A stretch of DNA of 27,361 nt from a virus: the IMG/VR virus record IMGVR_UViG_3300035698_022155, positions 1-27,361 of that record. One strand, written 5' to 3'. Below are positions 4,943 to 24,030 of the stretch, in pieces (within the stretch, counting starts at the first letter, position 1; every line of letters starts with the position of its first letter). The position numbers and the translations under genes are program-made. Under the pieces are notes generated by a model, which had not been told where the DNA came from, did no database searches, and saw only the letters and a program-made list of their open reading frames with translations.

Positions 4943-5629
4943 TTATTGCAAAAATTTAATCTGCACTTTTTCTAATATTCCTTCTTCATCTGTTAAAATT
5001 TCTTCAAGTCTAACATAAAAAACTAAAGTTCTAAAATGTAATTTATTATCCAGCTTAGTACTTGTGGCATCTTCTCCTCTCCACCAAAAAAGTATATCAG
5101 ATAAACCCATTTCTTTAAAAAAATCTCTATATCTGGCCATAAACCTGAAAAACCACAATGCCATATTTTCAACATCTTTATTGGTCAAAGCCCAAACATC
5201 AAACTGTATTAAAGCGTCCAAATACTGACCATAAACATTTGTCTGTTTATTTGCATCTTTTATACTTCGTCTTAACCTTGGAGTTAATTCCCTTGTTCCT
5301 GTCCCAAAAGGCTGCTTGTCCTTCCCTATCGCTGCCGGCTCCATTCTAGTTACCTTATATGTTATGGTATCCTTAAATTTTGCTACAGGATTATCCATAG
5401 TTTTAGTATATGCATGTGTGCCTGGCACGAGAAACGCTGGATAACATGGTGCTGTTATAACATCCGGTTGCTCCATTATCATTACATGATAAAATAAACT
5501 ATAAAACTGCGGTAATGAAAGATTACCCTGAGCTATATCAAAATTATAAGGTTCACTATTTGTTAACAAATGTGTCTGATATTCAGACGCAGTCATTTCC
5601 AAAGTAGAAGTTATCTCTACTGGGCTCAT
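4943..5629 (-). CDS. Probable tail-completion/neck protein
   Basis: 228 residues, immediately before the sheath gene and overlapping the previous gene by 4 nt. It is rich in aromatic residues and has an alternating hydrophobic core (YGQYLDALIQFDVWALTN, NMALWFFRFMARYRDFFKEM, LHFRTLVFYVRLEEI). GGAG lies upstream of the start. In contractile-tailed phages the genes between capsid and sheath usually encode head-closure, tail-terminator and neck subunits, and this gene takes the tail-terminator position. No sequence motif proves the family, so the role comes from gene order and size. Confidence 0.45.
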   Translation of the reverse strand: MSPVEITSTLEMTASEYQTHLLTNSEPYNFDIAQGNLSLPQFYSLFYHVMIMEQPDVITAPCYPAFLVPGTHAYTKTMDNPVAKFKDTITYKVTRMEPAAIGKDKQPFGTGTRELTPRLRRSIKDANKQTNVYGQYLDALIQFDVWALTNKDVENMALWFFRFMARYRDFFKEMGLSDILFWWRGEDATSTKLDNKLHFRTLVFYVRLEEILTDEEGILEKVQIKFLQ

Positions 5630-6102
5630 AAATGATTCTCCTCTGCATAAACACCTTTATAATCTATTTTAAAATTTTGACTATTTACCGGTAAAACTTT
5701 TATAACCTCGGACTTTCTTTTAGGTGTAACTTTTCCAAGTGTTAAATCCTCATCTGCTTCATCAAATACGACAGTTGGTTCATCTTCATCTATCCAATCC
5801 AATTCATATACTATATCGTTATCACTAATGTTTACATCATTTTCAAAGAAATATAAACTTGCTCTAGTTGAAAAATCCCCAGGTGCTTCAGGAGTCATAC
5901 CATCGGCTGTTAAAGCTAAACCAAAAGATGAATCTGTTGAAAAAGTTAAAACCACTGTATCTGTATATTCGAACATTGGTCCTCCTACTCCTTCTTTAGT
6001 TACCTCATCATAATACTCAGTGTGTTCGGTAGTAAAATGTCTAACCATTACCCATCTTCCACTACCTTCCAATATTTTAAGCAACTCGGCAGCTAAATCC
6101 AT
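5626..6102 (-). CDS. Probable head-closure/neck protein
   Basis: 158 residues, strongly acidic in its middle (ELDWIDEDEPTVVFDEADED), ending in a likely beta-strand pair (VIKVLPVNSQNFKIDYKGVY). The start overlaps the stop of the preceding gene (TAATG) and the stop overlaps the next start, so it is translationally coupled on both sides. Short beta-rich proteins between connector and tail-terminator genes are often head-closure subunits; here that is inferred from order only. An in-frame ATG at codon 41 follows GGA-GGA codons that mimic an SD, which I regard as chance. Confidence 0.4.
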   Translation of the reverse strand: MDLAAELLKILEGSGRWVMVRHFTTEHTEYYDEVTKEGVGGPMFEYTDTVVLTFSTDSSFGLALTADGMTPEAPGDFSTRASLYFFENDVNISDNDIVYELDWIDEDEPTVVFDEADEDLTLGKVTPKRKSEVIKVLPVNSQNFKIDYKGVYAEENHL

Positions 6103-8114: not shown

Positions 8115-9368
8115 TTATGTTACTCTTGCTGTCGTAACGTCTATTGCTGCGAGTGATGCGTTATTCACATTATCGAAAATGTAATTTCTGTCTACAACAA
8201 CGTTTCTTGCCACGGCGATACCTTTACCTTGATCGAAAACGCCCATGCCATATCTTTCACGAATATGTATCTGACGTACTTCTCTCTCGAAGATATTATC
8301 TTCTTCAGTATTAACATCTTCCCTCTGTACGAGTATACCACATCTCTGACTATCAGCCATTATGATGTTTGTTATTGGTTTCTCTCCCATTCCTCTATCC
8401 GTGAAAGGTGCCATATGTGTTACAAGCACTTTCATCGGTGTTGGAAGGTACTGAGGTGGTATATTAAAAGATGCGTTTAACGGTGTGAGTGTCTGTGTAA
8501 AAGCATCTATCCCATTATCGTCGCCGGTATATTTGTACCTGGCGCCTACACCATCAGGTGAAAATGGGTCAGCCCATCCGCCGTTTCCGGATCCTATAGG
8601 CATCCTTGCTGTTGCAAGTACTGCGCCACGGATAACTATCTCTCTGAGTTCCGGGTCTACTGCAAACGTTTTCCAAGCAAGCGGGTTCATTATCAGCGTG
8701 TCAGGATTAAAACCCCTAAGCGCAAGATATGCCCACATGTCGAAAAGATCGTTCAGTGTCATAGATCCATTAGCAGCACCAGCGATATTTCTACCGTTAA
8801 GTGAGCCATACTCAGAACTAGCCGGTGTCTGATTATCATACACAGTTGTTCCCATTGTGTTGATAAGCTTGATCGCCTTGTTCTCTTTAAGCCTTGCAAG
8901 AGCAGCACCAGCTGCACGCAGCCAAATATTTATAATATCGAACTGATTATCTTCAAGTACTTCTCTAGCAATATTGATAGCACAACCATATTTTGCTACC
9001 TTAATGCTGACTCCTACACCAGTCGTATCAGCAGACAGTGTGCTTCTAGGATAAGTTCCGCCCTGGGATACTTTACCGGCCATAATTCCACCGATATTTC
9101 CTATTTCCACAAGCTGACCTTCTGGTATATTAACCTTCGTAAAAAGATTAGGTATTACAAGCAGATTCGGTTGAATCGCCTCCAAAATTATCCTTCTTAC
9201 AACTTTAGGAATAAACGGTGCTATATCTTCAGTTGTTACAAGATCCCGAACCGTTAATTTTTCATTACTAAAACCGTCATTATATATGAGACCATTATTA
9301 TTAAGTACATGGTACAATCGGTCCATATATTTTCTGACCTTTTGTTTATCCTTGAGATCAATAGCCAT
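8115..9368 (-). CDS. Major capsid protein (HK97 fold)
   Basis: 417 residues with a strong SD (AAGGAGG) and codon use suggesting high expression. HK97-type features are the N-terminal helix, the APFIPKVVRRIILEAIQPNL segment followed by a loop region (GQLVEIGNIGGIMAGKVSQGG, about 94-114), the spine-helix region (AREVLEDNQFDIINIWLRAAGAALARLKENKA), the A-domain phrase LIMNPLAWKTFAVDP, and the C-terminal RYGMGVFDQGKGIAVARNVVVDRNYIF typical of this fold. It carries no long N-terminal scaffold domain, which fits the separate protease-scaffold gene upstream. Gene order portal, protease/scaffold, accessory, capsid supports the call. Confidence 0.9.
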   Translation of the reverse strand: MAIDLKDKQKVRKYMDRLYHVLNNNGLIYNDGFSNEKLTVRDLVTTEDIAPFIPKVVRRIILEAIQPNLLVIPNLFTKVNIPEGQLVEIGNIGGIMAGKVSQGGTYPRSTLSADTTGVGVSIKVAKYGCAINIAREVLEDNQFDIINIWLRAAGAALARLKENKAIKLINTMGTTVYDNQTPASSEYGSLNGRNIAGAANGSMTLNDLFDMWAYLALRGFNPDTLIMNPLAWKTFAVDPELREIVIRGAVLATARMPIGSGNGGWADPFSPDGVGARYKYTGDDNGIDAFTQTLTPLNASFNIPPQYLPTPMKVLVTHMAPFTDRGMGEKPITNIIMADSQRCGILVQREDVNTEEDNIFEREVRQIHIRERYGMGVFDQGKGIAVARNVVVDRNYIFDNVNNASLAAIDVTTARVT

Positions 9369-9398: not shown

Positions 9399-10463
9399 TT
9401 ATACGTCTAACTCTATACGTGTATATCCAAATTCACCATTTCTTATTCTATCGCGAATATAGTTTTTTCCTACATTAAGACTATTAGCTGTAAGAACATC
9501 ACGAACGAAAACGAACAGATCAGTTGGTATTCCAGCTGTATTCTGACTCATTGTTTCTAATCCAGGATAATTCTGTATATCTGCTGCCATCTCTTTAGGA
9601 TATCTTGTATCAGTTGTTACTATTCTTCCGACTGTTTGAATAGTTTTTGTTGCACTTGAGCTGGAAGATTCTGTTATGAACCTACCAAATCTATCTGATT
9701 TCAAAAACGACCCAGATACACCTTCGTTATCATCGCTAGCAAAATAATGAAACGCGTATTTCAAATAAACTGCATCATAGCCTTCATTATTTGTTCCTAC
9801 TCCAGTATCTAAACCAAATGTGCCATCAGTAAACTTTGATGTATCACAAAATGGAAGCCACATAAAACCTTTATGTGCTATATCAACTGCATCCTGTATT
9901 TCGTAATTAAGGTTTGCACCCCTAATGTCTAACATAACATCCTGGAAAACTATCCCGGCTGGTAAGTTAGCAGCAAGCACAAGGTCATCATCAGTAGATG
10001 CGGTCCAAGGACCATAAGAATCATCTATAGTTGTGTACGCATGTGTAGACGCATTTCCACCATTAGCTGGAACTAGTAAACTAGTTATATCATCATCATA
10101 TCCAAATGCACCTGAATCAATACTCTGATCCACGATAGCTCCTGTAGCTACGCTCTCGTAAACAGGTATGTCACCACTAGCTGACGGTCCTGGAATACTA
10201 TCTGCGACTATTGTCTGAGCTGTTAGCAAAGAAACGATAGTGCCTTTTGCAAGAACTATCGGCTTTGATTCAGCCATGTCACCAGATACATATTCAGTTG
10301 TTACCCTATTCACTGGGAGCAGCTTATATGCATAAGAAGGTGCCCCGAGAACACCCATGTTTTCAATTTCGATCCTTGGATCGATAGTTACTAGACGACT
10401 GCCAACATCGATCGATTTTACTGGAACGTTTTGACTTCCGCCATCAAAATTCAAATTAGCCAT
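9399..10463 (-). CDS. Capsid-associated structural protein (possible decoration protein)
   Basis: 354 residues with a strong SD (AAAGGAGG), between the protease-scaffold gene and the major capsid gene. It is acidic and rich in Asp, Ser, Thr and Gly (SGAFGYDDDITSLLVPANGG, ASTDDDLVLAANLPAG) with likely beta structure and no transmembrane segment or catalytic motif. Its position and expected high translation suggest a virion protein, for instance a capsid decoration or cementing protein. The family is not recognised, so the role is inferred only from neighbours. Confidence 0.5.
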   Translation of the reverse strand: MANLNFDGGSQNVPVKSIDVGSRLVTIDPRIEIENMGVLGAPSYAYKLLPVNRVTTEYVSGDMAESKPIVLAKGTIVSLLTAQTIVADSIPGPSASGDIPVYESVATGAIVDQSIDSGAFGYDDDITSLLVPANGGNASTHAYTTIDDSYGPWTASTDDDLVLAANLPAGIVFQDVMLDIRGANLNYEIQDAVDIAHKGFMWLPFCDTSKFTDGTFGLDTGVGTNNEGYDAVYLKYAFHYFASDDNEGVSGSFLKSDRFGRFITESSSSSATKTIQTVGRIVTTDTRYPKEMAADIQNYPGLETMSQNTAGIPTDLFVFVRDVLTANSLNVGKNYIRDRIRNGEFGYTRIELDV

Positions 10464-10493: not shown

Positions 10494-11483
10494 TTAATTA
10501 TCCTGACTATCATTTTCATCCGGGAAAAGTTTATTTTCTATAGTTGATTTGTTATCCTCAGTTTTAACTGCGTTCTTTCTGCTGTCTATTACAGCCTGAA
10601 ATGGATCATCGCCACCAACATCTTTCTCCGGATCATCTTCTACTATTTCTGAAATCTCATTTGAAGATGATTTAAGTTCTATCTTTAAATCACTTACTTT
10701 ATCTTCTAATGAAGACTTTGATCTTTCTAATAGTTCACTTTTATATTTATTATAAGCTGTCTTATATGTTTCATCGCTATCAGCATTCCTAATGGAATCA
10801 ACGAGTTTCTGTTTAGAATATACAGAAAGTTCTATGACTCTATCAACAAGCATATCTTTAACTCTCTTATTGAGTTCTACAATTTCACCATCCGAAGCTT
10901 TTGTTTTATCAGCTTGCGCGTCCAACTTAACTTTAAGGTCTTCAGTTGTCTTCTTAAGCTCATCATACCTTTTTTCTAGTTCTTCGTATTTGACTTGAAT
11001 TTCTTTTACTTTAACTTCAGCATCTGATATTTTTGTTGATTCATCAGCAACTAAAGTTTTTTCTTTCCTGTCAATACACGCAACAAGTTTACTTTTGTCT
11101 CCTGCACCGTCATAGTTTTCGATAAATTTGCGTGCTGCTTTAGCATGTTCAATATCATTTACAGGAAAACTCTTATCCGGGCCACAAAAATACTTAGTGT
11201 CTAGATTGCTTATTTTTTCTTCAGATAACTTTGAATCTTCACTAATCATCTTATCTGGGTCTTCATTAATATATTTAATATATGCTTCACCCATTGATTT
11301 TAGATCAGTTAAATCTTTTTCTTCAGCATCTTTCCAAAAAACTGAAATATCCTCATCGCAACCTTCACATTTGTCCAATAATGCTGACGCTTCATCTACT
11401 AACTTAGAAAATTGTTCTGTTGTTATAGTAGAAACAGTATCATTTGTTTTTGGATCACTTACATTCTTTTTATCTTTCTCCAT
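10494..11483 (-). CDS. Nested scaffold protein (internal in-frame start)
   Basis: Within the protease-scaffold gene an ATG at 11483 (codon 260) is preceded by AAGGAGG at 11489-11495 with a 5-nt spacer, as good as the SD of the major capsid and tail genes. It starts exactly after the protease domain and would give a 329-residue acidic, coiled-coil scaffold including the CGPDKSFPV module. A nested scaffold inside a protease gene is known from lambda (C/Nu3) and related systems, where much more scaffold than protease is needed. Expression is inferred from the SD. Confidence 0.7.
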   Translation of the reverse strand: MEKDKKNVSDPKTNDTVSTITTEQFSKLVDEASALLDKCEGCDEDISVFWKDAEEKDLTDLKSMGEAYIKYINEDPDKMISEDSKLSEEKISNLDTKYFCGPDKSFPVNDIEHAKAARKFIENYDGAGDKSKLVACIDRKEKTLVADESTKISDAEVKVKEIQVKYEELEKRYDELKKTTEDLKVKLDAQADKTKASDGEIVELNKRVKDMLVDRVIELSVYSKQKLVDSIRNADSDETYKTAYNKYKSELLERSKSSLEDKVSDLKIELKSSSNEISEIVEDDPEKDVGGDDPFQAVIDSRKNAVKTEDNKSTIENKLFPDENDSQDN

Positions 11484-12260
11484 CTTATCCTCCTTATGTT
11501 TACTGTCAAGAATAATCGATTCTCTTCTAACCATACTATCATATGTATTGAAAGTCTCGTTAGTATAATCATACTCAACTAAACTCATAGAAACTATGCC
11601 AGCTACATGTTGTGGTGAATAATCTGCAGGAAAATTTATGAATGAGCATTCATCATAATGTACCTGGGGAACTATCATTCCAACATAGTTATTATCTATT
11701 ATATCACCGCAGGCGTGATCACATGATAAAACTGGCCTACCATTAAAAACTGTTACCGGTTCTTTGCATTCTGAACAATATGGGATAGATGTTGGTCCAC
11801 CACCAGTTGAAACTGTTAAAAACTGTGACTTTAGGACTCGCTTCATTCCATCAACATCTGTCAATAGTGCATTTAAGCGTATTTTTCCAGTTGGTACTCC
11901 ACGATATTTAGCTTCATCAGCGTGTTTATCAAATGTTCCATCTGGTATTGGAATAAAAGCTGCTTCTTTTACACGTCCTAATGGTACTACTTCACCATTA
12001 TGTTCTGTTAATATTGGTTTAAGATATGGTTCTACAAATGAAGCAACACCATTTGCCATACCATCATGTGTATAAAAATATGAATTGTGGTTATAATATC
12101 CACAATGTGTTGCATCTATAACAACACTTAGCGCCTTGTCTTTAAAAAACTCTGCGTCTGATAAAGCTGAATCGCTAACTGCTATAGGTTTATCATTAAA
12201 AACGCCAATAGCTTTTGGCATTTCTATATCTATATTGTCTCTTACAATAATTCTCGACAT
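10494..12260 (-). CDS. Prohead protease fused to scaffold protein
   Basis: 588 residues. Residues about 1-232 look like a prohead protease domain: a His-rich stretch (THCGYYNHNSYFYTHDG, 51-67), GKIRLNALLTDVDGMKRVL, and FLTVSTGGG (148-155), a good candidate for the catalytic Ser motif. Cys162/Cys165 and Cys180/Cys184 can bind one zinc. The NFPADYSPQHVAGI phrase closes the domain. Residues 355-400 (FCGPDKSFPVNDIEHAKAAR, then DKSKLVACIDRKEK) match a CGPxxSFPV module common in phage capsid-maturation proteins. Residues about 408-530 are Lys/Glu-rich coiled coil typical of scaffolds. The protease start has no SD, an in-frame stop lies two codons upstream, and a tiny ORF with a good SD overlaps it. 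A second, strong start lies at codon 260. Confidence 0.8.
   Translation of the reverse strand: MSRIIVRDNIDIEMPKAIGVFNDKPIAVSDSALSDAEFFKDKALSVVIDATHCGYYNHNSYFYTHDGMANGVASFVEPYLKPILTEHNGEVVPLGRVKEAAFIPIPDGTFDKHADEAKYRGVPTGKIRLNALLTDVDGMKRVLKSQFLTVSTGGGPTSIPYCSECKEPVTVFNGRPVLSCDHACGDIIDNNYVGMIVPQVHYDECSFINFPADYSPQHVAGIVSMSLVEYDYTNETFNTYDSMVRRESIILDSKHKEDKMEKDKKNVSDPKTNDTVSTITTEQFSKLVDEASALLDKCEGCDEDISVFWKDAEEKDLTDLKSMGEAYIKYINEDPDKMISEDSKLSEEKISNLDTKYFCGPDKSFPVNDIEHAKAARKFIENYDGAGDKSKLVACIDRKEKTLVADESTKISDAEVKVKEIQVKYEELEKRYDELKKTTEDLKVKLDAQADKTKASDGEIVELNKRVKDMLVDRVIELSVYSKQKLVDSIRNADSDETYKTAYNKYKSELLERSKSSLEDKVSDLKIELKSSSNEISEIVEDDPEKDVGGDDPFQAVIDSRKNAVKTEDNKSTIENKLFPDENDSQDN
11489..11495 (-). 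promoter_or_regulatory. Strong internal ribosome binding site for the nested scaffold
   Basis: AAGGAGG sits 5 nt before an in-frame ATG inside the protease-scaffold gene. The codons (Lys-Glu-Asp-Lys) need not be spelled this way, and the full-length start at 12260 has no comparable SD. Confidence 0.7.
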
Positions 12261-12277
12261 AAGTTATATATATACAT
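12242..12277 (-). CDS. Eleven-codon upstream ORF overlapping the protease start
   Basis: An ATG at 12277 has AGGACG 3 nt upstream (AGGA core 5 nt from ATG). It encodes MYIYNLCRELL, ending at a TAA 16 nt past the protease ATG in another frame. It may capture ribosomes and lower protease synthesis relative to scaffold, or deliver ribosomes to the SD-less protease start by coupling. Support comes only from SD and position; there is no conservation evidence. Confidence 0.3.
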   Translation of the reverse strand: MYIYNLCRELL

Positions 12278-12323
12278 TTCCGTCCTATCTATATAGTAGA
12301 CACTTTACGCTAAAAATGTAATA

Positions 12324-14351
12324 CTACCGCAAAATTTCGGCTATTTTCCCAACATCTATATACGTGACTGGGAAAATTTTATCAAAATTCACATCACCTA
12401 TTTCTACCGTTGCTAATTTAATATCATTTAATACAAGATCTACCTTTTCACCATCACTCGTAGTATCCATAATTATAGCAGTAAAATATGTTTTTGTTGC
12501 TATAAAAGTTGCTAATAAATTGATTTTAAATTCTGTTGCATCAAATACTATAACAGAATCTCTAGCAATTACACAATTATCTTTTAACATATCATTTACT
12601 TCACTAAATAAATTTGCAACCAATTTATTATTTTTATCTAAAACCGTTTGTATTTCGTTTACATTATATTTATCTCCGCAAACTACTTCAAATAGATCTG
12701 TTAATACTTTATCTGTATCTGTTAATACATCATCCATTGCGCTAACCATGGTGTCCTGGAACATCACATTTGTAGAATCTTTAAATGTTGCTACAGCATC
12801 ACTTGAAACAGTTACAAATTTATCGGATATTATATTTTTATATTTATTTATACTCTCAACTAATGCATCTGTTCCCCTCTTGGCCTCGCCTGATCTACGT
12901 TTTGTGCCGTATTGATTTTTTGGTGTTTCCTTTTGTTTAGCTTTTGGTGATATCTCAGGTGCACCTATTTCTTTACCCTCACCGGTTCCCTCTGAATCAG
13001 AGAATAATTTTGCTGCTGCTATTTTAGGTATAGTTATTCTATTTAAAAATGTATTTTCAAATTCTTCCTGTGAAAAAGGATCCTTACCTATAGCGCCGCG
13101 GGCTTCATCTTCGGAATATAAATTTCCTTGCCACAATGATGCTATATGAAATTCTTTTCGTATTTTATCATCAAGATCTATTTCAGGTATATATAATTCA
13201 ACTTTATTTTCATCGTTAAATGAATCAAATCCACCTTCTTCTAATAATTCATCAAATATGAAATCCTCAACACAACTCTGTATTCTACGCTGGTATCTAG
13301 AAACGCTGTCCAGCACTATCTTATTCATTATCCCCATAGATGATCTACTTACCTCTCCCAAACCTATAGCTGCAGATGAGAGATTCATTCCAATTAATAT
13401 TCTCTCTCTAAAATAACTTAAATACCCTGTTACATCTAGCTCTCCTCTAACACCTACACATTCTATCTCATGCCGGCCATCTGTAACAAACATGCCATGT
13501 GGTTCCATTTCCATTATTTTTGCTTCTACATCATCAACTTCACCAGCCTTGGCGCCAGTTTCTTGTGTCCCTACTTTATATTGATAAAGTGGTATAGCGT
13601 GCTGGAAAACTAATATTTCAACATTCTCTTCCATACGCCTTAGTGCTCTTACATCATCTAATATATTAGCCGCTAATGGTGTAGCAAATACTTGATTTTT
13701 CTCATCATCTATTTTCATATGAATAACATCTTCTTTATTATATGTTGCTATTTCATTACCATATTGATTATAGACCTTCCATTTTTCTATTCTTTTGTTT
13801 TTTCTATCTCGCATTGCCGAAATTCTGGTTGGTTCTACAACAAAATATCCTGCTACAGGAAGAAGGTCTTTACCATAAAAGGTTCTTCTTTTTCTACCGC
13901 CAGATGCCTTTATGTTGCGCTCCTTAACAATAAAACAATTATTATATTGATATATGTATCTTGCTATATCATCAAAGAATTCTTCTGTTGATTGCTTTGT
14001 AACTTTAGATATCTGCCGCAATCTTTTAGAAACATAATTTCTTGCTGCTTTGTTTGAACCAGTTATTTTAAAACTATTTTTCCATATTAATTCAACAAAC
14101 CTTGCCCTGGACCTAGATAAGAAACCTTCTACTTTAAAAGCTGTTCTTACTGTAGCTAAAATTGTTGGTGATGATACTTCCTCAACATTCCAATTTCTAT
14201 TGATACCGTAAGTGGTTTTTATCTTTCTATATATAAATTTTAAAACTTTAACAACTGATCCACTAGATTTCTCATCAGAAACATTACTTAGATCAGTATT
14301 TCTATATCCTGAATCTATTAATCCAACCTCACGTTTTTTATTTTTATTCAT
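12324..14351 (-). CDS. Portal protein
   Basis: 675 residues, the dodecameric ring at the capsid vertex through which DNA is packaged. Typical portal features are an N-terminal region leading to SRARFVELIWKNSFKITG, a wing/stem region with YIYQYNNCFIVKERN, VEPTRISAMRDRKNKRIEKW, the NKEDVIHMKIDDEKN phrase (portals usually have a hydrophobic-H-hydrophobic motif here), TPLAANILDDVRALRRMEEN, and a long helix-plus-clip region with RERILIGMNLSSAAIGLG, SSMGIMNKIVLDSVSRYQRRIQ. The C-terminal 200 residues vary and include a Lys-rich linker. It lies between terminase and protease-scaffold, as expected. GGA lies a modest distance before the start, 2 nt after the previous stop. Confidence 0.9.
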   Translation of the reverse strand: MNKNKKREVGLIDSGYRNTDLSNVSDEKSSGSVVKVLKFIYRKIKTTYGINRNWNVEEVSSPTILATVRTAFKVEGFLSRSRARFVELIWKNSFKITGSNKAARNYVSKRLRQISKVTKQSTEEFFDDIARYIYQYNNCFIVKERNIKASGGRKRRTFYGKDLLPVAGYFVVEPTRISAMRDRKNKRIEKWKVYNQYGNEIATYNKEDVIHMKIDDEKNQVFATPLAANILDDVRALRRMEENVEILVFQHAIPLYQYKVGTQETGAKAGEVDDVEAKIMEMEPHGMFVTDGRHEIECVGVRGELDVTGYLSYFRERILIGMNLSSAAIGLGEVSRSSMGIMNKIVLDSVSRYQRRIQSCVEDFIFDELLEEGGFDSFNDENKVELYIPEIDLDDKIRKEFHIASLWQGNLYSEDEARGAIGKDPFSQEEFENTFLNRITIPKIAAAKLFSDSEGTGEGKEIGAPEISPKAKQKETPKNQYGTKRRSGEAKRGTDALVESINKYKNIISDKFVTVSSDAVATFKDSTNVMFQDTMVSAMDDVLTDTDKVLTDLFEVVCGDKYNVNEIQTVLDKNNKLVANLFSEVNDMLKDNCVIARDSVIVFDATEFKINLLATFIATKTYFTAIIMDTTSDGEKVDLVLNDIKLATVEIGDVNFDKIFPVTYIDVGKIAEILR

Positions 14352-18108: not shown

Positions 18109-18968
18109 TAACCAATTAAAGCAGCATAATTGGCTGCTTCTGTCCCCAAACCACGTCTTCCACCTAAATGTGTTCTCTGTAGCATTTGAACAGCTCTTTG
18201 TCTTTCTGTGGCGGCAGATTGTGTTCTAAATCCTGCACCAAGTGTTCCACCAAACTCTAATGATCTAATTTGTTCTGATTGAGCAGAGGCATAATCAACT
18301 GCTGATACAGCAGCCTTAAACGCTAAAGATGATACGTGACCAATACTACTTCCTATCATATATCCTGTTGCTATTGGTGATAATATTGAACCTAATCGTG
18401 ATAAATTAAGAGTAAGTTCTATTGCTTTCCTTGGCCCAGCCTTTCCCATACTAGCCATGACTTTTGCTATAGTTCCTCCACTATGCGACTTGTGTAGTTT
18501 TCCTATAACCGTGTCTAAAATATCATCTATCGCGCCAGGACCATTCTTAACCCATCTCTTATTTCGTATCGCCGCTGTCATTTCCTTTGTAAAATCCCTA
18601 TAAAAACCTGGATTTCCTGTGCCTATAGCGCCTTCTATTGCATTAGATATACTAAAAGCTCCCATGCCACCAACATCAAATCCCGCGCCAAGGGCACCAG
18701 GTATTACTTTATTGGCTAACCATGAAGACATCGTTGAGCCTATAGGAAATTTCCTAGATATTTTTCTAATTAATCCTTGCCCTACAAATGATGGTAATGA
18801 ATATGGGAATATTGCTAAACTTCCTGTTTTAGCCATATGACCAGCAGCATACATCGATCCCATAGGACTGAAATACCATTTTATGGTACTAAGTGGATTT
18901 TCAAATAGAAGTGATCCTACTCCACCTCTGTTCTCTATTTGTCTTCGTGCGCTATTTTGTGTGTCCAT
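18108..18968 (-). CDS. Small Gly/Ala-rich virion-region protein upstream of terminase
   Basis: 286 residues, basic, rich in Gly, Ala, Ser and Ile, with several amphipathic or weakly hydrophobic segments (AIFPYSLPSFVGQGLIRKIS, ILSPIATGYMIGSSIGHVSS). The C-terminal part (GTLGAGFRTQSAATERQRAV, then RTHLGGRRGLGTEAANYAAL) is basic and low-complexity. It is coupled by TAATG overlaps to both neighbours. It forms a block with the 69-, 223- and 153-residue proteins to its right, which share this composition. Such proteins could be internal virion proteins ejected with the DNA, or peptides lining the head. No family recognised. Confidence 0.45.
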   Translation of the reverse strand: MDTQNSARRQIENRGGVGSLLFENPLSTIKWYFSPMGSMYAAGHMAKTGSLAIFPYSLPSFVGQGLIRKISRKFPIGSTMSSWLANKVIPGALGAGFDVGGMGAFSISNAIEGAIGTGNPGFYRDFTKEMTAAIRNKRWVKNGPGAIDDILDTVIGKLHKSHSGGTIAKVMASMGKAGPRKAIELTLNLSRLGSILSPIATGYMIGSSIGHVSSLAFKAAVSAVDYASAQSEQIRSLEFGGTLGAGFRTQSAATERQRAVQMLQRTHLGGRRGLGTEAANYAALIG

Positions 18969-20464
18969 TATATTGTGGATGAATGTCTCATATCGTGTAG
19001 ACTCAGAGATAGTCCCTCAGTTGATAAATGATTACTAGGCATTCCTGAATTATGTGAAATAATACCATTTGCTAATATAAATAAATGATTATCAGATTCA
19101 ACCTCTATATCATAGAAATTTAAACCCGACACATAATTAATATCTTTCACTATTATACTTCTAACATTATTAGATACAAATGATGGTACCGTTTTAAATA
19201 CTTGTGATCTTACTAATGATTTTCTTATTTCATACTTTGTTGCTTCATATTCTTTACTTAATTTTTTATTACTTATAATTCTAGGATATCTTCTACATAT
19301 CCACCCGAGTAATAAACATACTAGGTTAAATTGTTTTTCTAATTTACTATTTCTAGCTAAACCAATTAACCATCTATTATTATCATCTTCATAATACCCA
19401 TCACCATTTAAAAATGCGTTCATCATCTCTGTCAACCAATCTACACCATATGAAAAACATTCATTTTTCAAACACTTAGTATGAACATTTTTACCACCAA
19501 TAAATCTCTCAATTAAAGACTGTGTTAACCTAGAACCGTATACCCGTACTACCAAAGTGTTACCTATTCCTGCAATATGTTTGCTCCCAGAAATACCATA
19601 TTTTTCTTTAAAAAAATTAAGTAATTTGTCAGCAACATGCTCCTCATTAATATTCAATGTAAATTGGATCCCATCTTCAGTATAACAACCTTCAGCTAAA
19701 TACCAACCAATTATATATGCCCAATCAATTCCAAAATATTCGGGCGTATTTACACTTTTATTTTCAATAGTTGCGACACTACAAATAACATCGTTAACTT
19801 TAATATATTGGGCTTCTTTTAATTCATGGGTATTTTCTGTAGCAATTAATAAGCGATGATTTTTACTACATGTCACCGTACAACCATTATCGCCAATTAT
19901 TTGAATGCCATCCTTTTTTTCAGTTTTCCATACATTTTTGATATCCACCCAAATCGTATTGCCGGACTCATCAATTGATGGTATTTGAGCATCCATATTT
20001 TTTATTCGTGCTAATTCTCGAAGTTCCATAAACTTTAACTTTCCATGAGTATAACAATATATTGATGATGAACCAACCAAACATTTCTTTGACCAACTTA
20101 TCATTCCTGATCCAGCACCTATCCCTCTTTCCTGAGTTGCGGCCTCTGGTGACAACCATGACATAGTGTTAAATATACTTTTACTTAAAGCGTAAGCACC
20201 TACAGCTATTCCTAAACCTACTGCACCGTATCTTACTCTTTTAGGTGTAAGTGTCGCATTTAAAAACCTACTCATCTTTCCGGAAAATGCTGATCTGGAG
20301 GCACTACGTATTCCTCTAAATGCATTTGCAAAACCTTTTACGTTAAGATTCTGCTGCTGAACATATCCTCTTGGTGCTCCTGGTTTATTAGGGAGCCTAG
20401 CGTATTGATTTATAAACTTCCTAGTTTTTGGTAAATATGATCTACCTCTGCTTAATGTTGGCAT
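18968..20464 (-). CDS. Small basic protein (153-residue mature form) interrupted by a LAGLIDADG intein
   Basis: The precursor is 498 residues from an ATG at 20464. I prefer this over a longer TTG reading because GGAGG lies 6 nt upstream and the ATG follows the previous stop by 1 nt. Residues 1-127 and the last 26 residues are host protein; residues 128-472 are the intein. Predicted splicing (…ISWSKK joined to SGMPSNHLST…) gives 153 residues with a basic N-terminus, a Gly/Ala-rich possible membrane helix (RYGAVGLGIAVGAYALSK) and a GLSLSLHDMRHSSTI end. It belongs to the block of small basic proteins before terminase. Function unknown, possibly an internal virion protein. Confidence 0.7.
   Translation of the reverse strand: MPTLSRGRSYLPKTRKFINQYARLPNKPGAPRGYVQQQNLNVKGFANAFRGIRSASRSAFSGKMSRFLNATLTPKRVRYGAVGLGIAVGAYALSKSIFNTMSWLSPEAATQERGIGAGSGMISWSKKCLVGSSSIYCYTHGKLKFMELRELARIKNMDAQIPSIDESGNTIWVDIKNVWKTEKKDGIQIIGDNGCTVTCSKNHRLLIATENTHELKEAQYIKVNDVICSVATIENKSVNTPEYFGIDWAYIIGWYLAEGCYTEDGIQFTLNINEEHVADKLLNFFKEKYGISGSKHIAGIGNTLVVRVYGSRLTQSLIERFIGGKNVHTKCLKNECFSYGVDWLTEMMNAFLNGDGYYEDDNNRWLIGLARNSKLEKQFNLVCLLLGWICRRYPRIISNKKLSKEYEATKYEIRKSLVRSQVFKTVPSFVSNNVRSIIVKDINYVSGLNFYDIEVESDNHLFILANGIISHNSGMPSNHLSTEGLSLSLHDMRHSSTI
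19049..20083 (-). mobile_element. Intein with LAGLIDADG homing endonuclease (345 residues)
   Basis: The intein starts with Cys (after WSKK) and ends in GIISHN before Ser, so all splice-junction residues are canonical: Cys1, terminal His-Asn, +1 Ser. Block B is SKNH within TCSKNHRLL; block F is FYDIEVESDNHLFI. The centre has two LAGLIDADG-type helices, YIIGWYLAEGCY (with Glu) and MMNAFLNGDGYY (with Asp), about 90 residues apart as in two-repeat homing endonucleases. Splicing and nuclease activity both look intact. Confidence 0.9.
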
Positions 20465-20465
20465 A

Positions 20466-21137
20466 TTATACCTCCGTTCCTGATCTATACATTCTTCTGG
20501 CGTTTCCTCTTGCAAATCTATATGTTGCTGAAGTTACGCCAAAACTTGCTACAGTTGGTGCAGCTAAAACTGCTAAATTAGATGCTAACCTTGGACCTTC
20601 CAATAACGCTTTACTACCTTCGGCCAAACCTATTGTCTCCATAGCTCTATCGCGTCCGGACATAATAGCACCCTGTATTCTTCCAACAACATGATCATTG
20701 TTCTTAGGTATAAATTTTCCTAAAGTTGCCTTTATTGCATCAGAAGTCTCATTTGCCTTCCAATCATATTTACTAGATCTGTATAAAAGATCGCCTACCC
20801 TTTGGCGCACATCTGCTGTGCGTTTAGCTAAAGCGTATCCTAGCTTATCAGTCTTGTTTATTCCTATGTTTGGCAACCTATTTAAAAGTTTACCTTCCTC
20901 CCCAGGGATAGCGCCGGCAACTTGTTTAACAACATCCCGCATGCCACCAGCAAACATTCCCTTACCGCGATAAGCGGCCGACCGTAGAACGTGCATACTT
21001 CTATGATACGGCAATGCAGCCTTTAAAGTCTTTCCTATCGCTACAGCTGCTTTACCTGGTCCATACCCCGGTACGAGATATCCTAGTGGATTTCCTACCA
21101 ACCCACCCTTACGAAACATACCAAGAAACTTATTCAT
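20466..21137 (-). CDS. Small Gly/Ala-rich basic protein
   Basis: 223 residues, strongly basic, starting MNKFLGMFRKGGLVGNPLGY, with Gly/Pro/Lys-rich N-terminus (VPGYGPGKAAVAIGKTLKAA) and an Ala/Val-rich, possibly membrane-interacting C-terminus (ASNLAVLAAPTVASFGVTSA) followed by RFARGNARRMYRSG. The start overlaps the 69-residue gene's stop (TAATG); its stop is 1 nt before the intein-bearing gene. Composition and position match the neighbouring small proteins, suggesting a common role such as internal head or ejection proteins. No family recognised. Confidence 0.45.
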   Translation of the reverse strand: MNKFLGMFRKGGLVGNPLGYLVPGYGPGKAAVAIGKTLKAALPYHRSMHVLRSAAYRGKGMFAGGMRDVVKQVAGAIPGEEGKLLNRLPNIGINKTDKLGYALAKRTADVRQRVGDLLYRSSKYDWKANETSDAIKATLGKFIPKNNDHVVGRIQGAIMSGRDRAMETIGLAEGSKALLEGPRLASNLAVLAAPTVASFGVTSATYRFARGNARRMYRSGTEV

Positions 21138-21346
21138 TAAATTTCGCCTTGAATTTTCATCTTAGAATATTTATTCGCAGTATCTGCTAATCTAAGACCA
21201 AGTCCGCGAGTGGCTTTCAGCCCTACGCTCTTTCTAACTCTACCCATACCAAGTTTTCTAATAAAATCTAATTTCTTTAACATATTACTATTCATTAACC
21301 CTATCGGTTTCAGGGCCTTCAATAAATTAGGATTTCGTAACAACAT
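21137..21346 (-). CDS. Small basic protein (69 residues)
   Basis: 69 residues, about one quarter Lys/Arg (LKKLDFIRKLGMGRVRKSVG, KATRGLGLRL). GAGGAG lies a few nt upstream inside the end of the preceding gene, which it overlaps by 20 nt; it is coupled to the next gene by TAATG. It may bind nucleic acid or a membrane. Function unknown. Confidence 0.5.
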   Translation of the reverse strand: MLLRNPNLLKALKPIGLMNSNMLKKLDFIRKLGMGRVRKSVGLKATRGLGLRLADTANKYSKMKIQGEI

Positions 21347-23942
21347 CTGATATCTCCTCTACGTCTATAACTCTAGTGTCTTCGGCATGCTCTTTTTCTA
21401 ACTGAGCCGCGCGCTCACGTAATGAAGCAGCGTACTCATCCGGAGTAGCTCCAACATCCTTAAGAAATTTAGCCTTTGCTTCTCTTGTTGCTATCATCTC
21501 TTTAAGAACCTTACTCCTACGATTAGTCAAAGTCTGCTTAACTGATATTGCCAAATTAACTATTGTTTGTGTTATTGGGTTTCCACCATCATCTATTCCT
21601 ACAAACACTTCCTGAGTGAGCCCATCTTGGGCCAGCATATTGCTAGCCCGGTTGTTTACTAGATCAAGCTCTATTAATTCGATTATCAGCATTCTATCTA
21701 CTCTATCGCTCCAATCGACGTCCATGGAGTCAATATATTCGTCTTTCCATTTATTTACTAGAAATAATTCGACCGGGCAGTTGTGTGTAACGATTCCGCC
21801 CGCAATATAAGTTTTATATTTATCAACATCTAAAGAATAAACAATACCATCATAATCTTCATATTTTATATTACATTCTTCCCAATAATTTTTCTCATAT
21901 GATAAAAAACCATATTTTGTTTTTTTTCGTTTTCCTGAAAAAATAGGTACATCCATAACTCCAGGTAAAATGTTACATGTTCTTATATACATGGGCCACT
22001 TAACATATGGTCCTATTTCAGGTGTGTCATCAGAAAATCCTCCTCTTCTCCATATTGGATAAGCTTCAGATAACCCTAATGATTCCAATAATTCTTTATA
22101 AAAATTAGCAGGTTTTTTAAGACGGTTATGATGCGCATTTATCTGTTCTTGTGTCGCCCATTTATAAATACCATTATAAACAGTTTTTTGTCTATCTAAA
22201 CAATTAGCAAATGATAAACGACTTACCTGAAATTTTAAGGAATAATACTCCTCATCCAAATAAGCTTCCGTATTGGTATCATAAATACCTAATATCCACA
22301 TTTTATCTGCTTCCTCTTTAACAGCTCTCTGTGTAAAATTCATATAAAGTTTATGTTTACTACCACTTTTTTTATATTTTGATATTAATTTACTTTTACC
22401 AATTCTCCAATAATCACCCTTTCTCATTAAATAAACACAAAACTTACCAACAGCTTTATCATTAAATTTTGCAACAGAAATATGATCGTATGTAACTTTA
22501 TGTTTATAGCCATTAGCAGTAGATAACTCAATTATATTACCTTTAAAAGATCTTTTACCTATCTTAAAATTATAACCGACTTTTTTCTTATTTCTAAATA
22601 CTTGATGTTTTCTTTCCCATACTACTAAAGTGTGAATATTTTCATCAAGCTCTTCGATGTTAACATATCCATATTTTTCAGTATAAATTTTTTCGCCCGG
22701 AGGATGGCATATTTTTCCTACCGGCGCCTTATCTAATTCCTCAAGCGGACACTTTTTAGACATAACACAATTATGAGTAACAATATCATTAGACACATAT
22801 GTTCCATATTTATCAACATCCAGACTATAAACTATTCCATCATAATCACGAAAACTTGTTTTAACTTTTTTCCATGTTGGTCTAATACCACATTTTTTCT
22901 TACCAATAGTTCCATCTTTTCTTTTATAATCCCTAACCACTACCTCACCCGGCATAGTAGGAATACTCATACAGTCACTCAATACATTGCAAGCTCTTAT
23001 TATCAAAACATTTTTATAGCCAAGTTTATCGAAATTCTTTTCTTTTCCAGAAAACTTACATATTACAGATTTATCCTTATGTCTTGACCAAAATGGATAA
23101 TTAATATCAAGACCAAACTGATAAAGTTTTTTCGCATAATAATCTCTCGGTTTATATAAACTCTGATGATGAGCATCAAGTTGTTCCTGTGTTACCCATC
23201 TATATAAACCTTTAGATTTACCAACTTGTCCTCTATGTGGAACAACAAAACAAGCTTTTGGTGTGCCCCATTCTGCCGAGTAAAATTCCTCACCCAACAA
23301 TGCCTCTGTGTTAGTATCATAAATACCTAAAATCCATAATCTATCGGCTTTTTCGCCAAATACTCTTGAAGATGGAACAAATGTTCCACCATATTTTTCA
23401 GAATTCCGAAAAAGTTGTGTTTTTCCTATTCTAAAAAAATCATCTTTTTGCATAAGATATACAACAAATTTTCCCTTAGCGCACTCATTCCATTTTGCTA
23501 CAACAAAATGATTATTGGTGCATTCATATGATTGTTTATTAGACTTCAACTGAAACATTTTTCCATGATAATTTCTACTGGTTTTTGTAAAAACGTATCC
23601 TTGATTGTTAGTTCCAGGTTTACCTGAACGAACAACATGATTATTTAAATCATATGTTGATAATCTATGAGTATCGCTATTAAGTTCTTCAATCGATATC
23701 TTACCATGAGAAACAGTATCAATCATAGTTCCCGGTGGTTGACACTCGTCAGCATGACAAACCATAGGTGCATTATAAGTCTCACTTAAAATATTACGCT
23801 TAAGACTCGTTTTAAGACGAGATATCTCTTTATCTGTCAACGCTAGGCTCTGCTTAGTATCATCATCCATCTGACCTATGATACCGGCTAAGTCATTATC
23901 GGTTATGTCTACTAGCGCTGTAGTTTTTATTTCTTCTTCCAT
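21327..23942 (-). CDS. Four-cysteine protein (possible small terminase) interrupted by two inteins
   Basis: The precursor is 871 residues from an ATG at 23942, chosen because it follows the stop of a 28-codon ORF by 1 nt; a GTG 30 nt upstream is the alternative. Inteins occupy residues 67-391 and 412-721. Splicing leaves 236 residues with the cluster C-x4-C-x5-C-x13-C (CHADECVMSKKCPLEELD, then APVGKICPVE), likely a zinc or iron site. After it come an acidic helical middle and TNRRSKVLKEMIATREAKAK near the end. A CPL…P.GK.CP.E pattern before the large terminase is, from memory, seen in other phages in the small-terminase position. That role is inferred; the extein boundaries are well supported. 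Confidence 0.65.
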   Translation of the reverse strand: MEEEIKTTALVDITDNDLAGIIGQMDDDTKQSLALTDKEISRLKTSLKRNILSETYNAPMVCHADECQPPGTMIDTVSHGKISIEELNSDTHRLSTYDLNNHVVRSGKPGTNNQGYVFTKTSRNYHGKMFQLKSNKQSYECTNNHFVVAKWNECAKGKFVVYLMQKDDFFRIGKTQLFRNSEKYGGTFVPSSRVFGEKADRLWILGIYDTNTEALLGEEFYSAEWGTPKACFVVPHRGQVGKSKGLYRWVTQEQLDAHHQSLYKPRDYYAKKLYQFGLDINYPFWSRHKDKSVICKFSGKEKNFDKLGYKNVLIIRACNVLSDCMSIPTMPGEVVVRDYKRKDGTIGKKKCGIRPTWKKVKTSFRDYDGIVYSLDVDKYGTYVSNDIVTHNCVMSKKCPLEELDKAPVGKICHPPGEKIYTEKYGYVNIEELDENIHTLVVWERKHQVFRNKKKVGYNFKIGKRSFKGNIIELSTANGYKHKVTYDHISVAKFNDKAVGKFCVYLMRKGDYWRIGKSKLISKYKKSGSKHKLYMNFTQRAVKEEADKMWILGIYDTNTEAYLDEEYYSLKFQVSRLSFANCLDRQKTVYNGIYKWATQEQINAHHNRLKKPANFYKELLESLGLSEAYPIWRRGGFSDDTPEIGPYVKWPMYIRTCNILPGVMDVPIFSGKRKKTKYGFLSYEKNYWEECNIKYEDYDGIVYSLDVDKYKTYIAGGIVTHNCPVELFLVNKWKDEYIDSMDVDWSDRVDRMLIIELIELDLVNNRASNMLAQDGLTQEVFVGIDDGGNPITQTIVNLAISVKQTLTNRRSKVLKEMIATREAKAKFLKDVGATPDEYAASLRERAAQLEKEHAEDTRVIDVEEISDVVTKS
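21780..22709 (-). mobile_element. Intein 2 with GIY-YIG-like insert (310 residues)
   Basis: It starts CHPPGEKI after VGKI and ends GGIVTHN before Cys, with block B TYDH and a VYSLDVDKYKTYIAGG block F, so splicing residues are canonical. The insert contains VYLMRKGDYWRIGKSKL, an Arg in FTQRAVKEEAD, and WILGIYDTNTEAYLDEEYYS. These match the order of the GIY, YIG, catalytic Arg and catalytic Glu elements of T5orf172/MUG113-type GIY-YIG nucleases. No LAGLIDADG motif is present. It is clearly a sister of intein 1. Confidence 0.8.
22770..23744 (-). mobile_element. Intein 1 with GIY-YIG-like insert (325 residues)
   Basis: It starts CQPPGTMI after CHADE and ends NDIVTHN before Cys. Block B is TNNH and block F VYSLDVDKYGTYV. 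The insert has VYLMQKDDFFRIGKTQL, Arg in SSRVFGEKAD, and WILGIYDTNTEALLGEEFYS, then a conserved helical tail (WVTQEQLDAHHQSLYKPRDY). The same segments in the same order occur in intein 2, but only about half the residues match by eye, so the duplication is not recent. Confidence 0.8.
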
Positions 23943-23943
23943 A

Positions 23944-24030
23944 TTAGCATCCGCCTCTGCGTCTGCCTCCACGTTTTATACTTGGCCTTGGTGATCTTTC
24001 TCTTGGTCCTTTTCCGTCTCCGCCTGGCAT
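23944..24030 (-). CDS. 28-residue Gly/Arg-rich peptide
   Basis: An ATG at 24030 has GGAG 9 nt upstream (AAAAGGAGCAATATC). It encodes MPGGDGKGPRERSPRPSIKR followed by GGRRRGGC and stops 1 nt before the ATG of the four-cysteine gene, so the two are probably coupled. The MPGGDGKGP opening and terminal Cys recall the small DUF5320-type peptides (MPxGDGTGP…GxC) seen in prokaryotes and phages, but the match is short. It could be a leader whose translation controls the next gene, or a small DNA- or RNA-binding peptide. Confidence 0.5.
   Translation of the reverse strand: MPGGDGKGPRERSPRPSIKRGGRRRGGC

Follow-up and report, generated by a model that had tools for sequence, protein, structure and literature searches.

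How a single reading frame could supply a virus with few proteases and many scaffold proteins is the question raised by one gene in the window, by which we mean the whole stretch of DNA analyzed, a virus record of 27,361 bases. An earlier note, made from this DNA alone, had described the gene as a protease–scaffold fusion with a nested scaffold start and an upstream mini-ORF. Our analysis indicates that the gene very probably encodes a head-maturation protease fused to a scaffold, which is also an independent nested cistron. In the following sections, we describe the two starts and the fold of the protease, the leader, the conservation of the internal start and a sister clade with a separate scaffold gene.

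One gene with two start sites

The full-length gene (10494..12260, minus strand) encodes 588 amino acids from an ATG at 12260. An in-frame TAA lies two codons 5′ of this ATG, and the start is upheld by a residue-by-residue alignment of the N-terminus with those of three relatives (L006, L010, and L011), whose starts are collinear with it. As the earlier note had observed, the start lacks a Shine–Dalgarno (SD) sequence, which is absent within 20 nt upstream (tatatatataacttATG; the 20 preceding bases are gaaatgtatatatataactt). The second start was also found as described there: an AAGGAGG (11489..11495, minus strand) is separated by a 5-nt spacer from the ATG at 11483, which is codon 260. From this ATG, a nested ORF of 329 amino acids (10494..11483, minus strand) shares both frame and C-terminus with the protease gene, an arrangement of the lambda C/Nu3 and herpesvirus UL26/UL26.5 kind. 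This ORF recurs in relatives, and its product is modelled as helical.

The coding strand of the window contains six copies of AAGGAGG. Apart from the internal site, all are located directly 5′ of gene starts (10463, 9368, 8024, 4927, and 1999). Within the window's genes, ATG 11483 is the sole internal in-frame ATG, GTG, or TTG with an anti-SD duplex of −10 kcal/mol or below (1/259). Synonymous-codon shuffles of this gene reproduce an internal SD and start in 6% of cases, so that the single-gene test alone is not decisive; conservation in relatives is. In the minimum free energy fold, the internal SD and its ATG are almost wholly unpaired.

A simple initiation score gives +1.6 at the full-length start and −9.1 at the internal start. 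From these two scores, few proteases and many scaffolds are predicted for the window gene. Across the family, the scores do not consistently favor the internal start: it is predicted to be stronger than the full-length one in 21 of 34 relatives (median −1 kcal), and a strong scaffold excess is therefore no family-wide prediction.

Gene neighborhood and relatives

The fusion gene belongs to a head gene cluster on the minus strand. It is preceded by the portal protein gene (12324..14351; phrog_9232, E 6.9e-34) and followed by a conserved gene (9399..10463), which has an AAGGAGG, matches no family and possibly encodes a decoration protein, and then by the major capsid protein gene (8115..9368; Pfam Phage_capsid_4, E 3.2e-15). 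The named phages MTATph1 (Moorella), KLEB27-3 (Bacillus), and ME3 (Acinetobacter) share with the window the order portal, protease–scaffold, conserved gene and capsid protein. Among named phages, only these three gave remote matches to the fusion protein (25–27% identity), and the window capsid protein is 25–30% identical to theirs, which makes the window a distant member of this group. Elsewhere on the minus strand, the segments 18968..20515 and 21327..23972 contain intein-like sequences, which begin with Cys and end with HN-Cys/Ser; the first ORF appears to have one of them and the second ORF two.

Single-protein scans with the fusion protein and with the portal found no relatives. Capsid-protein searches gave better ones, and a capsid profile yielded 79 loci. 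A full fusion-protein alignment was too diverged to serve as a search query; with a profile of the protease domain, the gene was found in 87 sequences, 66 of them distinct, nearly all of which have a long C-terminal extension.

The N-terminal half resembles gp21 and herpesvirus proteases

The AF2 model of residues 1–258 reached a pLDDT of 82.7 (59 sequences). In VIA-align comparisons, its best match was T4 gp21 (5jbl; Z 10.2, rmsd 2.2 over 120 residues), followed only by herpesvirus capsid proteases (Z 9.5 to 5.2), with unrelated folds at 4.6 and below. Foldseek alone recovered only the HCMV protease (E 0.016). The model, its structural matches, and an alignment of 62 sequences place the protease fold at about residues 42–229 (11574..12137, minus strand). 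In this alignment, His87 and Ser151 are invariant and Glu204 is conserved in more than 90% of sequences; the first two are candidate catalytic residues. On the strength of the modelled fold, the N-terminal half is a predicted head-maturation protease of the gp21/herpesvirus type, with putative proteolytic activity on scaffold and capsid protein. The profile phrog_18299 (“head maturation protease”) matches 41 of the 62 homologues; the window protein has no hit to any protease family profile.

Between the Ser strand and the Glu strand, the domain contains a CxxC…CxH insert (residues 162–182; 11715..11777, minus strand). C162, C165, and H182 are invariant and C180 is conserved in more than 90% of the 62 sequences, a pattern which suggests that the insert is probably a metal-binding zinc site.

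The modelled fold ends near residue 229–235 and is followed by a disordered linker (237–257). Codon 260, placed by the earlier note exactly at the domain border, directly follows this linker and thus lies at the border approximately. For the charged C-terminal half, the model is helical, with long helices spanning 130–223 and 237–272 in scaffold numbering, and is loose (pTM 0.36). In a large clade of relatives, this half opens with a DUF6582-like domain.

The leader of the full-length start

The earlier note had also given a role to an 11-codon ORF with its own SD that overlaps the protease start. The ORF is present (MYIYNLCRELL*; 12242..12277, minus strand): it is out of frame with the protease gene, begins 17 nt before the protease ATG, and ends past it. 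Its SD is weak, consisting of an AGGA(CGG) (AGGA at 12283..12286, minus strand) with a duplex energy of −3.9, or −1.8 with the spacing penalty. Shuffled leaders contain a similar or better overlapping mini-ORF in 2.7% (ATG) to 5.5% (ATG, GTG, or TTG) of cases.

Upstream of the protease gene lies a promoter-like element, CTACTATAT (12291..12299, minus strand), which is found 5′ of this gene in five of the six members of the window's clade (window, L006, L008, L010, and L017). Across 684 kb of related sequence, there are 11 copies on the coding strand, of which nine belong to those five members, and four copies on the other strand. The element, which is specific to strand and clade, is also present elsewhere in L006/L007, L008, and L010.

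Could the mini-ORF control initiation at the protease ATG, by capturing ribosomes or by letting them reinitiate there after termination just past it? The geometry of the locus lends this some appeal. Portal stop and protease start overlap by 8–20 nt in many relatives, a spacing suited to translational coupling, and coupling to the portal may set the protease level there. In the window, the portal gene ends 63 nt upstream of the protease start, and the mini-cistron with its upstream AGGA could substitute for the missing overlap, although that it replaces portal coupling is a guess. Moreover, the window leader folds better than its shuffles (z −3.1). Against such a role, the SD is weak, the mini-ORF is close to what chance produces, and none of the relatives examined has it intact: at its position, L006 has an unrelated 7-codon ORF and its close relative L010 an ATG-TGA, while in L011 and L008 there is no mini-ORF and the full-length start is served by a strong SD. 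The leader hairpin was not found in L006, L010, L017, or L008. Were CTACTATAT a promoter, transcription would begin a few bases ahead of the mini-ORF, and the 5′ arm of the hairpin would lie outside the mRNA. We therefore consider regulation by the mini-ORF unlikely, and the mini-ORF, which lacks the conservation of a regulatory upstream ORF or leader peptide, is probably incidental. In this part, the scheme proposed by the earlier note is not supported.

A different arrangement is seen in L011 (1083..1145), where a TTCCTCC located 5′ of the strong SD that serves the full-length protease start is able to base-pair with this SD (z −3.1 for the leader fold). In this single case, the pairing may be another way to damp the protease.

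The internal start is conserved among relatives

For each relative, we took the best in-frame start within 55 codons beginning 20 codons past the protease domain (codons 20–75) and scored it as strong at a duplex energy of E ≤ −9; this region was picked after inspection of the internal sites, and all controls use the same region. A strong in-frame start was found in 29 of 65 relatives, window included. The controls gave 3 in the +1 frame and 1 in the +2 frame, 6.5 expected from synonymous shuffles, and 8/440 for other stretches of the same genes. The nested ORF has an initiation signal of its own that is conserved in relatives. Conservation had been proposed by the earlier note as a check for both elements, and it is borne out for the internal SD (29/65 against 6.5 expected), but not for the mini-ORF.

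The internal sites differ between clades. In the window's clade (L006, L010, L011, and L017) and in L005, the site is AAGGAGG. Another large clade has TGGAGGA about 32 codons past the protease domain, and a Bacillus-phage-like clade has GAGAGGAG or AAGGAG about 51 codons past it. The nested Met is located at the start of the DUF6582-like domain in a second clade. In L028 and L034, the internal start lies further on, past this domain, as does a similar site in L026, whose duplex of −8.3 misses the stricter cut of the nested-versus-detached count given below. The start codon itself varies between ATG, GTG, and TTG at one position: L080 has ATG|TEEQIKALQ with an SD, and L078 has TTG|TEEQVKALQ. 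The cultured Bacillus phage KLEB27-3 carries the signal with a GTG at codon 256. Since the start codon switches over a constant protein start (M/L-TEEQ-KALQ), the conserved feature is a start site and not an amino-acid motif.

A strong internal SD is absent in about one third of relatives. Seven of the loci without one (L002, L004, L019, L064, L067, L071, and L088) have no detected separate scaffold gene either. In L008 (5950..5975), AAAGGAGGT is present at the position of the nested SD, yet no ATG, GTG, or TTG follows it (GTTATTACT), whereas its sister L017 has an ATG; L008 has possibly lost the start or uses a non-standard start codon.

A sister clade encodes the scaffold separately

Nine loci without a strong internal start carry a highly charged gene of 220–263 amino acids directly downstream of the protease. 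With a filter for size and charge, such a detached gene was found in 9 of 20 loci without a strong internal start versus 0 of 46 with one (Fisher p 4.5e-6, with related genomes counted). A profile of the fused C-termini finds the detached genes, and a profile of the detached genes adds L038 and L065. In all eleven loci (L030, L032, L038, L045, L049, L052, L054, L055, L058, L065, and L069), a scaffold gene that is homologous to the C-terminal part of the fusion lies downstream of the protease gene, and in the protease tree they group together as sister to the window's group. Their proteases keep a different C-terminal extension. L038 combines the detached gene with a moderate internal SD (−7.5), so that its loss is incomplete there, and the strong start is absent in the other members. 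The protease frame of L040 (615..2342) stops at 191 amino acids and is followed by a charged ORF, which may be a broken or split fusion.

Since the detached form is essentially confined to one clade on the tree, it represents one event and not nine or eleven; as judged from the tree, scaffold domain and protease were joined or separated once, on the sister-clade branch. The free-standing homologue implies that the C-terminal half is able to function as a polypeptide of its own. By this evolutionary evidence, the C-terminal part is an independent module with putative scaffold activity. The sister clade thus provides a natural experiment: its scaffold is encoded on its own, and its protease genes lack the strong internal start. 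Taken with the modelled N-terminal protease fold and the internal SD and start conserved in place, the free-standing homologue sustains the nested-scaffold part of the earlier proposal.

The same data bear on the idea that the scaffold is released by proteolysis only, through self-cleavage of the fusion near the linker (compare the herpesvirus R site), with the internal SD a chance product of Lys-Glu codons. The predicted disorder of residues 237–257 would suit cleavage, and the 6% of shuffles of the window gene that yield an SD leave some room for chance. Over the family, however, a strong SD and start stand in place several times more often than the same amino acids would produce (29/65 versus 6.5 expected), the start codon switches among ATG, GTG, and TTG, and the scaffold of the sister clade has a gene to itself. 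Nor need the two routes exclude each other, since HSV UL26/UL26.5 combines cleavage with nested initiation (PMC12474303). Release by proteolysis only is thus quite unlikely.

Proposed mechanism

We favor a fusion of protease and scaffold in which the scaffold is also a nested cistron. This reading draws on the two starts, the conservation of the internal one, the protease fold with its candidate catalytic residues, and the homology of the scaffold part to a free-standing gene; from these, we infer initiation at 11483, scaffold excess, co-assembly, and cleavage as follows. Weak initiation at ATG 12260 would yield a minority of 588-amino-acid protease–scaffold molecules, and strong initiation at AAGGAGG/ATG 11483 would yield the 329-amino-acid scaffold in excess. 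The scaffold part of the fusion would carry the protease into the procapsid, which would form around a scaffold core containing a minority of fusion molecules. The protease would then degrade this core and mature the capsid. An unequal ratio of scaffold to protease is plausible because the T4 core contains 576 scaffold versus 100 protease copies (PMC5694885) and because the protease-derived scaffold of HSV-1 makes up about 10% of the total (PMC12474303).

It is very unlikely that the mini-ORF is instead the remnant of the true start, put out of frame by a real or assembly indel in the TATATATATA run: although ATG 12277, which is preceded by an AGGA, lies 17 nt 5′ of the protease ATG, a small indel would bring it into frame with the gene and the TA-repeat run is indel-prone, relatives start at the position of 12260 without extra residues (MNRMYLKD in L006 and MKYMYIKD in L011, compared with MSRIIVRD here).

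Comparison with known systems

The nested protease/scaffold plan is already known, since lambda C/Nu3, HSV UL26/UL26.5, and Bacillus phage 0305phi8-36 precede the case described here. These systems differ from the window gene in several respects. UL26.5 is expressed from its own transcript, whereas a ribosome-binding site is the evident signal in the window gene, and the likeness between the two is one of fold and layout. The lambda C protein is an SppA/ClpP-like protease, in contrast to the gp21/herpesvirus type modelled for the window protein.

The layout of HSV-1 is nevertheless the same: a protease of the same fold is fused to a scaffold, which is nested in frame. There, the protease has 635 amino acids and the scaffold corresponds to the last 329, encoded by an in-frame gene starting inside (PMC12474303); in the window, the scaffold is the last 329 of 588 amino acids, and we take the equal length to be a coincidence. 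In lambda, too, the scaffold gene lies in frame within the 3′ portion of the protease gene, according to Shaw and Murialdo (1980), as cited in PMC8508860. For 0305phi8-36, a Figure 2 legend from 2007 names a “protease with nested scaffold gene” (PMC2147016), a likeness by annotation. The record of Acinetobacter phage ME3, which is linked to the window family, annotates its terminase, portal, and capsid protein as homologous to those of 0305phi8-36. T4 offers the closest solved fold to the window protease in gp21 (5jbl, Z 10.2), but encodes gp21 and the scaffold gp22 by separate genes, a trait in which the sister clade resembles T4. For giant phages, it has been stated that no equivalent of the T4 scaffold is confirmed (PMC5694885).

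Our additions to this known plan are fourfold: the internal start was tested for conservation across dozens of lineages, the protease was assigned to a fold, a detached scaffold was identified in the sister clade, and the mini-ORF was rejected as a conserved element. The comparisons suggest that relatives of KLEB27-3, MTATph1, and ME3, and, by annotation, of 0305phi8-36, widely share a protease/scaffold plan of the herpesvirus type. In the named relatives, the fusion is annotated merely as “hypothetical protein” or “prohead protease”, and annotators should add the second, nested gene. Fusion and nested start might even be homologous to those of herpesvirus UL26/UL26.5, in which case the plan would predate the split of herpesviruses and tailed phages, and both the separate genes of the T4 type and the detached sister-clade scaffold would be derived; we regard this as rather doubtful.

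A further gene of the window (5626..6102, minus strand) also has two candidate starts. Its ATG at 6102 lacks an SD and overlaps the upstream stop, and an internal ATG at 5976 is accompanied by AGGAGTAGGAGG, which may reflect either coupling or a second start.
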